A DNA stretch of 64,000 nucleotides from Hydrogenophaga sp. (lineage in GTDB: Bacteria; Pseudomonadota; Gammaproteobacteria; Burkholderiales; Burkholderiaceae_C), in the NCBI RefSeq assembly GCF_025699295.1, contig NZ_JAILWB010000009.1, positions 62,001 to 126,000 on the forward strand, given 5' to 3'. The notes under the pieces were generated by a model. It did no database searches, was not told the DNA's origin, and was given only the letters and a program-made list of their open reading frames with translations. This document shows positions 8,699-12,183 of the stretch, one piece after another. The translations under genes were made by a program, and so were the position numbers. Numbering within the stretch: position 1 is the stretch's first letter; each line of letters opens with the position of its first letter.

Positions 8699-9571
8699 AT
8701 GGTCGACGCGACGTCCGCCGCGCCTTCGCGCCTCTCGCTCTACCTCGACCTGATCCGCTGGAACCGACCGGCGGGGTGGCTGCTGCTGCTGTGGCCCTCG
8801 CTGGGCGCGCTGTGGGTGGCGGCCGGCGGTTTTCCCGGCTGGCACCTGCTGGCGGTGTTCGTGCTGGGCACCATCCTGATGCGCAGCGCAGGCTGCTGCG
8901 TCAACGACGTGGCCGACCGCGAGTTCGACAAGCATGTGAAGCGCACGGCGCAGCGCCCGATCACCTCGGGCAAGGTCTCAGTGCGCGAGGCGCTCGCGCT
9001 GGGCGCGGTGCTGGCGCTGGCGGCTTTCGGGCTGGTGCTCACCACCAACACGCTCACGGTGCTGATGTCGTTCGCGGCGCTGGCGATCACCCTGATCTAC
9101 CCCTACGCCAAGCGCTTCGTCTCCATGCCGCAGGCGGTGCTGGGCGTGGCCTTCAGCTTCGGCGTGCCCATGGCCTTCGCGGCGGTGCAGTCGCACGTGC
9201 CGCCGCTGGCCTGGGTGCTGATGGCCGGCAACCTGTTCTGGGTGCTGGCCTACGACACCGAATACGCCATGGTGGACCGCGACGACGACCTGAAGATCGG
9301 CATGAAGACCTCGGCCATCACCCTGGGCGACGCCGACGTGCCCGCCGTCACCGCGTTCTACCTGGTGTTCCTCGCGGTATGGACCGCAGCGCTCTGGACA
9401 GTGGTGAACCCCTGGGTGTGGGGCGCCATGCTGATCGTTGCGCTGGCCCAGGTTGTGTGGCACTTCCAGCTCATCAAGGACCGCAGCCGCGACGGCTGCT
9501 TCAAGGCCTTCCGGCTCAACCACTGGTTGGGGTTCACGGTTTTTGTGGGTGTGGTGCTTGGCTTGGTTTGA
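8699..9571 (+). CDS. ubiA: 4-hydroxybenzoate octaprenyltransferase
   Basis: A 290-residue integral membrane UbiA prenyltransferase that attaches the polyprenyl chain to 4-hydroxybenzoate in ubiquinone synthesis. The first Asp-rich motif NDVADREFD and the second [12 protein letters not shown] are intact, and about eight hydrophobic segments are visible. It begins ten bases after the dps stop, so it may be co-transcribed with dps. Length and motifs are normal. Confidence 0.96.
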
Positions 9572-9875
9572 GCGCGCTGGGTTTCGGTCGTGGTGTTTCT
9601 TCGGCCCACGGACGCGGCGTGCCCTGCTCCGCGGCTGTCCCCCGGCGGCTGGCGCCGCCTCCTCCTTGATGCCGCTGCGCAGGGCACACCGCGTCTGTGG
9701 GCAGAGAGGTTGTCTGGCGCGCGGCCAGTGGGTTTTGGTGCAGTAGGATGGCGCCTATCGGCCACAAGCGGGCACTGATGGGGACCGGTCCGGATCGAGT
9801 CAGTTGATAAGCGTGGATCGTCTCGTATAACTCGCTGCCGAGCTCGACTTCGAGAACTGCTCGGACTGCACCGGG
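9572..9875. other. Gene-free stretch after ubiA carrying a structured repeat
   Basis: About 300 bases without a credible gene. The stretch holds the left copy of the structured repeat (9605-9701). The rest, up to the end of the orphan gene, shows lower GC but no clear promoter, tRNA or attachment site. Confidence 0.6.
9605..9701 (-). repeat. Structured repeat, copy 1 (inverted relative to copy 2)
   Basis: A 97-base element whose 22-base ends form an imperfect inverted repeat with two mismatches (CCCACGGACGCGG... / ...CCGCGTCTGTGGG). Inside lies an internal hairpin (GGCGGC...GCCGCC) flanked by a conserved core that reads, on the minus strand, GCAGCGGCATCAAGGAGG and later GGGGACAGCCGCGGAGCAG. 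The same core recurs at 11191-11288 in the opposite orientation with different but still self-complementary stems. Confidence 0.88.
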
Positions 9876-10946
9876 CTACCGCTCATACCCATAGATCATT
9901 TCAAACTCGTCGTCAGTCATTAGCGACGGGTTGCTTTCAAAGAACAGCTCTGCGGCGTCGGTTTCCCAGGTGCGACTTCTCGCGATTGAGTTCATGGCCG
10001 GGCCTGTGGCTGGAACTGTCGGCGTCCTGTCCGCACGCGCGAGGGACGTTTTCATCAGTTGAAGAGAAATCGAAGTCACGCTCTCTGCAAGCACCCCTTT
10101 GTATGGGGAAGAAACGCAAACGGCGAACACTGCACGCTGCTCTTTTCGGTCACTGAGGTACTCGTAAGCGCGCTGATGGTGCTCCGCCAGATGTGGCCTG
10201 GCGCTGAAAGACTGCAGGGTCACGTCGTCCCCATTGGAGCCGATGCACTTGACGTGAATGCGTCCATCAGACAGCCAAACGTCGCGCAGATAGGCGTCTG
10301 CAAAGACATACTGATATTTCGTCCTCAATGGGACTACCTCCGAGAACCTCGGTGGACCCTCAAGAGCCTCGGCTTGTGAGTCCGCAATTGCCTCTACCAA
10401 CCGAACCACCGGCTCAGCGCTGACGACAACTTGTTGCCCCAGGTTGTCGCCTGCATCGACCGCTGGGGTCGACTGCTCGAGGTGTTCTCTGAAAACTTCT
10501 TCGCAATCAGTTGAATCTGCAATCTTGCCCTGCGCGTACGCTGGGTGAAACACGTCAATCAGATCTTGCTTAGAAATGCGCCCCTTCTTGAGCATGCCCT
10601 CCAAGTGCCGAGTCACCGTAGCATCGCCCTTTGTGCTTGAGATGGAGAGCACCGTAATCACTGCGGGAACCCTTGAGTCATCCGTGGGCAACTCCAAAAC
10701 AATCCTGCAGTCCAGCGCGTAGGCTTCAGCAGCGGAGCCGGACGCGTGGGGCACTACGAGGCGGCCGGAGTAGTGCTTTCGCATACGCGCGATTTCATCA
10801 GGTCGCTGTGAATCCGTAGCTGCGGGATCGAAAACTGGATTCGAGAGAGTTGCGAATTGCTGATGCTGCTCCGTGAGGCTCACGCCGAACCGTAGCGGCA
10901 GCGAGACCTTGTTCGAGTGGCTGTTCAAACCAATGAAGACCTTCAT
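9876..10946 (-). CDS. Orphan hypothetical protein of lower GC
   Basis: A 356-residue protein I do not recognise. It begins MKVFIGLNSHSNK and ends in an acidic tail (SLMTDDEFEMIYGYER). It has no signal peptide, no membrane segment and no catalytic motif I can name. A charged region near residues 130-190 separates two more ordered halves. The ATG at 10946 is chosen because a GGAG lies suitably upstream; an in-frame ATG 11 codons earlier lacks one. Base composition differs from its neighbours: a 60-base sample at 10501 has 31 G/C, against 41 in a ubiA sample at 9301. It sits alone between ubiA and proC, bracketed by two inverted copies of a structured repeat, which suggests acquisition. Confidence 0.7.
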   Translation of the reverse strand: MKVFIGLNSHSNKVSLPLRFGVSLTEQHQQFATLSNPVFDPAATDSQRPDEIARMRKHYSGRLVVPHASGSAAEAYALDCRIVLELPTDDSRVPAVITVLSISSTKGDATVTRHLEGMLKKGRISKQDLIDVFHPAYAQGKIADSTDCEEVFREHLEQSTPAVDAGDNLGQQVVVSAEPVVRLVEAIADSQAEALEGPPRFSEVVPLRTKYQYVFADAYLRDVWLSDGRIHVKCIGSNGDDVTLQSFSARPHLAEHHQRAYEYLSDRKEQRAVFAVCVSSPYKGVLAESVTSISLQLMKTSLARADRTPTVPATGPAMNSIARSRTWETDAAELFFESNPSLMTDDEFEMIYGYER

Positions 10947-11298
10947 CTGCGACTCCAGGGATGTTCTTTTGGCAAGCAAGTAGATTCCACCGACTAACCA
11001 TAACTCACGTCACGAAGTCTGGACAAGCGTCGCATGGTCAACGCCGCTCAGTTGTGTGATGCATGCGAGATTGGGCGGCCGGCCAGTTTCTCGAAGTTCG
11101 CTTGCAAGACCGGATGGCTGCGTTGTAGGCGTGATTTCGAAGTTCTGCCCGACCGCTATGGGCCCTTTCCGGTCCTCGCTCTCCACTCCCGCTCGCGGAT
11201 GCGGTGCGCTCTGCGCAGCGGCATCAAGGAGGAGGGGCCGCAGGCCCCGGGGGACAGCCGCGGAGCAGAGCGCACCGCATCCGCGAGCCGAGTGAAGG
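10947..11298. other. Gene-free stretch upstream of the orphan gene
   Basis: About 350 bases that hold the probable promoter side of the orphan gene (no convincing -35/-10 pair found) and the right copy of the structured repeat (11191-11288). No open frame here looks like a gene by composition or homology. Confidence 0.6.
11191..11288 (+). repeat. Structured repeat, copy 2
   Basis: A 98-base element with perfect 23-base terminal inverted repeats (11191-11213 and 11266-11288; outer sequence GCTCGCGGATGCGGTGCGC). An internal hairpin GGGGCC-GCA-GGCCCC lies at 11234-11248, and the conserved core is shared with copy 1. It ends ten bases before the proC stop codon, so in the proC transcript it would fold directly after the gene and could act as a terminator. 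Confidence 0.9.
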
Positions 11299-12129
11299 CT
11301 ACTTCCCGAACTCGCGGCCCAACTCCTCGGCGCGTTTTTGCGCAGCGAACAGCGCCTCTTCAAACTTCGCCTTGACACCCGCCGCCTCCATCGAGGTCAG
11401 CGCTGCGTATGTGGTGCCGCCCTTGGAGGTGACACGCTCTCGCAACGTCTGCGGCGGATCGTCGGAGCGTTGTGCCAGGGTCGACGCGCCGATGAAGGTG
11501 CCCACGGCGAGCTGGTAGGCCACCTCGGGCGGCAGTCCCATGCGGGTGCCCGCGTCGCGCATCGCTTCGAGGAAATAGAACACGTAGGCCGGGCCCGAGC
11601 CCGAGAGCGCGGTCACGGCGTCGAGCTGTTCTTCTGCCGCGACCCACACCAGTTCACCGGTGGTCTTCACCACGGCTTCAACCAGCGCGCGGTCGCCGCT
11701 GCTGGCGCCGTCACGGGCGAACAGCCCCGTCATGCCCAGGCCGACGAGCGCCGGTGTGTTGGGCATGGCGCGCACGATGCGCTGGGTCTGCAGCCAGCCG
11801 GCCATGCTCTCGCTGGTGATGCCGGCGGCCACGCTCAGGTGCAGGGCGCCCTGTAGATAGGGCTGGCTGGCGAGCGCGGCGTCCTTGAAGGTCTGCGGTT
11901 TCACCGCCCAGACCACGAGGTCCGAGGGACGCAGTTCCGCGCTGGCGGCGGCGAGCAGCGAAACGCCGGGGAACTGCTGCGCCAGTTTTGAACGCTGCTC
12001 GTCCCAGGGTTCGACGATCTGCAGCACGCTGGCCGGATGGCCCTGGCGCAGCAGGCCGCCGACGATGGCGCTGGCCATGTTGCCGCCGCCGATGAAGGTG
12101 ATGGTGGGGTGGGAAGGCGTCGTGTTCAT
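11299..12129 (-). CDS. proC: Pyrroline-5-carboxylate reductase
   Basis: A 276-residue NAD(P)H-dependent enzyme for the last step of proline synthesis. The Rossmann motif ITFIGGGNMASAIVGGLL is at the N-terminus, VRAMPNTPA is in the middle, and the signature region ALSGSGPAYVFYFLEAM followed by TLRERVTSKGGTT lies in the C-terminal half. The ATG at 12129 is chosen over one nine codons upstream because it precedes the Rossmann strand closely. There is no Shine-Dalgarno sequence; GACAAT (reading minus strand, 12136-12141) ends six bases before the ATG, so this gene probably has its own promoter although glpK ends only 54 bases upstream. Confidence 0.95.
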   Translation of the reverse strand: MNTTPSHPTITFIGGGNMASAIVGGLLRQGHPASVLQIVEPWDEQRSKLAQQFPGVSLLAAASAELRPSDLVVWAVKPQTFKDAALASQPYLQGALHLSVAAGITSESMAGWLQTQRIVRAMPNTPALVGLGMTGLFARDGASSGDRALVEAVVKTTGELVWVAAEEQLDAVTALSGSGPAYVFYFLEAMRDAGTRMGLPPEVAYQLAVGTFIGASTLAQRSDDPPQTLRERVTSKGGTTYAALTSMEAAGVKAKFEEALFAAQKRAEELGREFGK

Positions 12130-12183
12130 CGCGCCATTGTCGCCCGCCGCCGTCACCCTGTTCAGGGCGCAGTCAGGCCACCG

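Follow-up and report, generated by a model that had tools for sequence, protein, structure and literature searches.

The window, a 64,000-nucleotide stretch of a Hydrogenophaga sp. genome, contains two elements of about 100 nt between ubiA and proC, which face each other across a single orphan open reading frame (ORF). As the initial annotation had noted, this gene has a lower GC content than its surroundings (56.2% vs 66.3% for the window). The features of the locus are presented in Table 1, where G numbers stand for genomes, G000 being that of the window. Element 1 (E1) starts 32 nt past the ubiA stop codon, and Element 2 (E2) is located 10 nt past that of proC. The two are inverted repeats of each other (63 nt at 81% and 56 nt at 82%) and are the sole copies found in the window by a covariance model search at E up to 1. 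Each of the four strands folds strongly (-77.5 to -79.5 kcal/mol, z -6.7 to -9.9), with 0 of 200 shuffles as good in every case. The compensating changes that the initial annotation read from the outer stems (CCCTG/CAGGG vs CTCTG/CAGAG) and the inner hairpin (GGCGGC vs GGGGCC) are present in the sequence: 5 of the 24 arm pairs are altered on both sides between E1 and E2, 2 are altered on one side and 17 are identical. The arms of E2 form 24 Watson-Crick pairs, and those of E1 form 22 together with one G-U and one A.C.

Table 1 Features of the ubiA-proC locus (positions within the window)
Feature	Position	Strand	Remarks
ubiA (UbiA prenyltransferase)	8699..9571	+	PF01040, E 2.2e-66
Element 1 (E1)	9604..9702	minus (folded strand)	covariance model, 88.2 bits
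Border segment just inside E1	9729..9774	+	similar in the G014, G365, G359 and G378 ubiA-proC loci
Orphan low-GC ORF	9876..10979	minus	367 aa from TTG, 355 aa from ATG
Segment just inside E2	11150..11190	+	similar end by eye in G014, G021 and G025
Element 2 (E2)	11191..11288	plus (folded strand)	covariance model, 96.3 bits
proC (pyrroline-5-carboxylate reductase)	11299..12156	minus	PF14748, E 2.1e-37

Both elements share one architecture, which reads on the folded strand, from 5' to 3', as a 24-nt arm, GCA, GCGGC, ATCAAGGAGGAG, an inner hairpin, CGGGGGACA, GCCGC, GGA and a second 24-nt arm. GCA thus stands opposite GGA inside the arms and is followed by a 5-bp inner stem, while the inner hairpin varies in length. 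An exact core-pattern scan of genome contigs returned at least 116 stretches from records titled Comamonadaceae, Burkholderiales, Betaproteobacteria, Polaromonas, Rhodoferax, Hydrogenophaga and others, and a tolerant search of these stretches and the first loci yielded 200 copies, a set that leans to the exact core because the scan demanded it. The loops of the element are near-invariant (AUCAAGGAGGAG and CGGGGGACA); the arms vary in sequence around a stem of exactly 24 bp, with Watson-Crick pairing dropping from 81% in the final arm position to 24% in the one that follows.

The covariance model was built from 48 diverse copies. Applied to the genome of the window and its relatives, as the initial annotation had suggested, it recovered 16 copies in G000, all of them full length (73.8-98 bits), and no weaker ones there at E up to 0.1. 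Matches were present in 33 of 36 Hydrogenophaga genomes (G000 included) and in 1 of 24 genomes from other families. Across the taxonomic family, 137 of 299 genomes had a match, as did 76 of 141 genera; an order-level sample gave 13 matching genomes of 300, five from the same family and eight from two other families. Because few candidates were scored per genome, the copy counts from these large searches are minimum values. Three Variovorax records of 1.2-1.3 Mb were the only plasmids in which a match to the element was found. A phage origin was rejected, with 0 exact core-pattern matches in viral contigs. No Rfam family exceeded its gathering cut-off, the best match on an element scoring 17.5 bits against a cut-off of 80.

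Covariation extends through the whole structure. In the 48 sequences, from which the structure itself was derived, 95.6% of cells are paired vs 64.5% in shuffles, 29 of 34 pairs have changed on both sides, and the covariation score of 0.803 (vs 0.201) was reached by 0 of 500 shuffles and also exceeded the slid controls. In the 200 copies, the inner stem alternates between GCGGC/GCCGC (173), GCGAA/TTCGC (14), GCGGG/CCCGC (4) and others. A separate parse of 120 copies, 14 of which the parser set aside, showed that in 20 of the 106 parsed copies the stem is replaced on the folded strand by GCGAA with TGAGC, apparently tandem G.A pairs. GGNGG flanks the inner hairpin on both sides in 94 of these 106, with the two N positions covarying. 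Loop positions 40 and 70 covary as well (A/G 171, G/A 9, C/G 8 and A/A 1 in 189 distinct copies, four odd copies being dropped), and one copy in the second set of 106 has G at both.

These data raise the question of which strand is the selected one. On the forward strand, the arm cells of 180 distinct complete arm pairs comprise 3676 Watson-Crick, 421 A.C, 38 G.T and 185 other combinations; outside the arms, G.T is more frequent than A.C (494 vs 201). Since an A.C on one strand is a G.U or G.T on the other, the selected fold lies on the reverse strand, that is, minus for E1 and plus for E2. The proposal that pairing maintained through changing sequence reflects selection is thus borne out by the covariation and the wobble bias, and applies to one folded strand. 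The bias itself fits RNA and single-stranded DNA alike.

The elements are typically arranged as dyads. Of the neighboring couples less than 3 kb apart, 55 of 63 face each other (the remainder being 2 RF, 1 FF and 5 RR), with spacings of 40-61 nt in 28 facing couples, 74-107 nt in 13, 142-150 nt in 7, 186-198 nt in 2 and wider distances in 5. A hand count in six genomes (G000, G022, G024, G025, G029 and G035, with 20 of the 22 G035 hits taken in) assigned 78 of 111 copies to pairs. In these genomes, the linker measures 37-87 nt in 37 facing pairs; two more pairs are wide, both of them at ubiA-proC with a gene-sized insert, and G029 contains one further facing couple, 9.6 kb apart. Of 199 copies, all but one lie outside called ORFs, and 128 of the 184 with a known upstream gene come after a gene on the same strand, at a median of 49.5 nt past its stop codon. 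The 44 dyads whose context was counted stand between co-directional (28), convergent (14) and divergent (2) genes, compared with 21, 2 and 7 of the 30 gene gaps in the window. The same loci are often occupied in different species, by a dyad in one and by a lone hairpin in another, in one case next to a remnant of the partner.

Several additional observations concern particular dyads. In Polaromonas (loci L032, L034, L040, L049, L077 and others), linker lengths group near 48, 97, 147 and 198 nt, and these steps of ~49 nt may reflect stepwise linker duplication. Two of the 16 G000 copies are situated at the starts of contigs C8 and C10 (positions 2-103 and 101-202), and their neighbor genes match both neighbors of one G029 locus (L184); the two copies may be one dyad split by the assembly. 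The orthologous dyad L162/L195 of G025 and G029 has arms 83-88% alike, which by eye resemble those of Rhodoferax, and is perhaps an old subfamily common to genera.

Taken together, E1 and E2 are quite possibly two halves of one copy of a dispersed REPIN-like palindromic repeat, the folded single DNA strand of which would be read by a strand-specific DNA-processing enzyme; we adopt this explanation tentatively. The unit would be the dyad, two hairpins of ~100 nt facing across a short linker, each hairpin representing one folded single strand. We infer that this strand is single-stranded DNA rather than RNA. The fixed 24-bp stem would present the near-invariant, purine-rich loop core, AAGGNGGAG opposite CGGNGGACA, to the enzyme, which would recognize it and now and then copy or homogenize dyads within a genome; such enzymatic copying is again what we infer. 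Single hairpins would be remnants of dyads, and in G000 one dyad, at the ubiA-proC hotspot, would have come to hold an unrelated orphan gene in its linker.

When compared with the defining properties of REP sequences, the element shows two and lacks two. Inverted doublets are the common arrangement, and the copies are extragenic and rare between divergent genes. The foot tag was not found: in 192 copies, GTAG occurs once and CGTC never before the hairpin and neither occurs after it, the commonest tetranucleotide before it being GCCA (21 copies). Furthermore, no tyrosine transposase flanked by the repeat was found in 14 transposase loci. A REPIN is the best fit for the way in which this paired hairpin repeat works, although it fails two of the defining REP features. 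Integron attC sites likewise combine a folded single strand, a conserved core, a variable stem and a choice of strand; judged by this analogy, the element would differ in occurring in facing pairs, whereas attC sites stand in a cassette array. With REPINs, in the portion of PMC3116915 available here, the element shares the inverted doublet unit, singlets as remnants, the extragenic location and compensatory changes, but its monomers are ~100 nt long with variable arms of exactly 24 bp and a loop core that does not vary, a RAYT linked to it was not found, and likeness within a genome was seen in one genome only. With REPs and BIMEs as treated in the accessible part of PMC3733652, it shares the position downstream of genes, the placement between co-directional or convergent genes and the dimers in opposite orientation, but it exceeds their 20-40 bp and has no GTAG/CGTC foot.

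Likeness among dyads of one genome bears on copying. In G028, 14 of 20 fetched dyads are by eye of one sequence type, with linker and short flanks included; these 20 were chosen as facing pairs and so provide no test of the facing arrangement. Mean arm identity among the 14 is 0.87 and 0.90 for the two halves, with minima of 0.52 and 0.67, and G028 arms overall score 0.65 within the genome vs 0.50 between genomes. In G000, G024, G025 and G029, arm likeness within the genome is about the same as between genomes. Recent copying is suggested in G028 only. Arms at orthologous loci are scarcely more alike (0.574) than those at loci drawn at random from the own genome (0.539) or from the other one (0.538); arm sequence thus changes quickly while pairing is preserved. 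General concerted evolution was considered and rejected: a count in which the orthologue beat the most similar copy of its own genome in 5 of 44 cases, with 5 ties, overstated it through best-of-many bias, and under a fair control it is left for G028 alone.

For the gain and loss of dyads, we joined the flanks of five G028 loci, located the joined sequences in 12 genomes and inspected three of the sites. In the closest relative, one of these has no dyad but retains a piece of a dyad arm; at a second, the left border survives in a relative; in more distant genomes, the dyad is absent with no visible trace. None of the three sites is a clean pre-insertion site, and no convincing target duplication was found in the 14 G028 copies. 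Remnants of lost halves occur at L193 and in G372. Partial loss of dyads by deletion is thereby demonstrated at two sites, and gain at none.

Is the folded strand an RNA after all? The element could be a cis-acting RNA, a 3'-end structure terminating transcription or protecting mRNA, with a facing pair serving two convergent genes. The position shortly after same-strand genes and outside ORFs, the excess of convergent over divergent contexts relative to the window, the G.U over A.C bias and the tandem G.A variants on the folded strand all agree with such a role. However, in single hairpins flanked by co-directional genes, the fold is on the sense strand in 5 and on the antisense strand in 16 (excluding 17 copies near locus ends and 12 units with no called neighbors), and a second set, counted by hand in G000, G024, G025 and G029, gave 11 sense and 4 antisense, with one locus common to both sets. 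This absence of a consistent preference for the mRNA strand argues against a simple cis role in mRNA. Moreover, no Rfam family came near its cut-off, and a terminator scan of 9540-11330 gave two weak sites vs 1.5 in shuffles, both at 9708-9728 and hence outside the elements; a hairpin followed by a U-tract, as in intrinsic terminators, was not found, the other copies being judged by eye. A terminator or mRNA role is therefore not supported, and we consider the cis-acting RNA unlikely, albeit a serious competitor.

Alternatively, the element could be an immobile site for a host protein or the nucleoid, either BIME-like or forming a two-tetrad G-quadruplex in the hairpin (GGNGG...GGNGG), in which case the likeness in G028 would be due to gene conversion. 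The frequent GGNGG pairs with their covarying N positions, the loci common to species and the lack of a clean empty site are in line with this proposal, which we nevertheless regard as rather improbable: the alike tract in G028 stops at similar places in many copies, and these recurring ends look by eye more unit-like than random conversion tracts would.

A Y1 tyrosine transposase is encoded by one gene in each of 14 genomes of the genus; it is related to the REP-associated family but scores under the NCBIfam cut-off (75.6 vs 80 bits). GGGGTCAG or CTGTCCCC repeats lie near the gene in several loci, although the start pattern was not found in 3 of the 14. In a side observation, several transposases (L256-L268) carry a double 3' repeat, with CTGTCCCC followed ~48 nt on by CTGACCCC and then by a conserved TGCTTGGCATTGTTGTTGCAATGCAATATGCT. 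The element itself had 0 matches at E up to 10 in the 14 loci (45,065 bases), and among the 299 family genomes it is present in 131 of 282 with the transposase (called at E up to 1e-20) and in 6 of 17 without it. As the driver, the transposase was therefore rejected, being neither linked to the element nor co-occurring with it; as a candidate enzyme, the single-copy gene is a lead only. In the sections of PMC3733652 and PMC6006769 available here, TIRYT genes are described as having GGGGWSAS repeats and no REP-like partner nearby. The GGGGACA in the loop of most element copies resembles this TIRYT motif, but it points outward in the dyads and inward at the transposase, and its last base is not conserved in the element (11 of 200 copies read GGAGGACA). 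It is conceivable, though we think it very unlikely, that the dyads are the missing REP-like partner of a vertically inherited, single-copy TIRYT of Comamonadaceae, a domesticated enzyme that would read the folded single-stranded DNA with a GGNGG...GGNGG two-tetrad quadruplex between the 24-bp stem and the inner hairpin and would copy dyads between chromosomal sites.

Another question is whether the hairpins have any part in the presence of the orphan gene. Its codon-position GC (60/44/64) shows a coding-like pattern, compared with 65/45/93 for ubiA and 69/51/87 for proC. Searches of the protein against Pfam and PADLOC (E up to 1) and NCBIfam (E up to 0.01) returned nothing, the gene had no match in phages or plasmids, and the only one of the 299 family genomes with a protein match is its own; the structure model (mean pLDDT 32.5) was set aside. 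None of the 44 other ubiA-proC loci contains the gene. In four of them, the orthologous element pair encloses other candidate ORFs instead (~277 codons in G017, ~93 in G014, ~307 in G021, where one half of the pair is broken, and ~186 in G025; DNA of 54-60% GC). Among 40 further ubiA-proC loci, 12 have at least one element (four have both, one of these with a 31-nt linker), 10 have inserts of 416-3585 nt and no element (longest ORFs 85-538 codons, GC 51-72%), 11 have gaps of less than 140 nt and no element, and 7 remained ambiguous; hits of 16-31 bits inside ubiA were considered weak and left out of the count.

The initial annotation had interpreted the inverted flanks as possible ends of a mobile unit carrying the gene between them. 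The foreign-looking orphan gene, and the different ORFs held by the orthologous pair in its own genome and four others, speak for such a unit. Against it stand the observations that the initial annotation had itself named as refuting: both copies are still present where the gene is absent, in G017, G014, G021 (one broken), G025, G011, G359, G337 and G362; and the element is widespread with no inserted gene. Nearly all other dyads are empty, and in the six hand-counted genomes only the two wide ubiA-proC pairs hold gene-sized inserts; long inserts occur where elements do not; and the gene has no match elsewhere in the 299 genomes. From the orthologous pairs lacking the gene, the element-free long inserts and the empty dyads, it follows, for the loci studied, that the elements are not the ends of a unit that moves it, and we regard such a unit as highly improbable. 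The emptiness of nearly all other dyads and the long inserts found where elements are missing also disfavor cassette swapping by the elements. The other suggestion, a shared insertion target, finds weak support in the different ORFs between one pair in several species and the border of ~40 nt common to some of them.

This border, a conserved GCAGTAGGATGGCGCCTATCGGCC segment between E1 and differing inserts, is common to the window and four other genomes (L005, L196, L215 and L228 among the loci) and is possibly a shared promoter or an old recombination border; for the segment inside E2, BLAST at 1e-3 connects G021 with G025 only. Across ubiA-proC loci (L004, L005, L008, L009, L197-L201, L210, L211, L218, L224 and L230), the ORFs differ from species to species, one of them resembling by eye a trypsin-like protease. 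The interval looks like an insertion hotspot in the genus, and the orphan gene looks like a passenger that is not carried by the hairpins.

Finally, divergently transcribed small RNAs starting in the dyad linker would explain why both folded strands point outward from it, but the 40-60 nt linkers vary from one genome to another and could hardly accommodate two promoters, and a sigma-70 scan of 9540-11330 found none, which makes this extremely doubtful.

No published description of the family was recognized in the literature searched, and sequence strings gave no match (cf. the available portions of PMC3733652, PMC3116915, PMC2817692 and PMC6006769); the main text of PMC3733652 does not name Polaromonas, Rhodoferax, Acidovorax, Delftia or Variovorax. 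A family this widespread and with very strong covariation has thus had neither an Rfam match nor a recognized description. The ubiA-proC locus illustrates that two repeats flanking a foreign gene may be misread as the ends of a mobile element. The family as a whole is a system in which to ask how palindromic repeats choose their strand, keep their shape during arm turnover and persist, and it is a test case for the recognition of a folded strand that lacks the GTAG tag.
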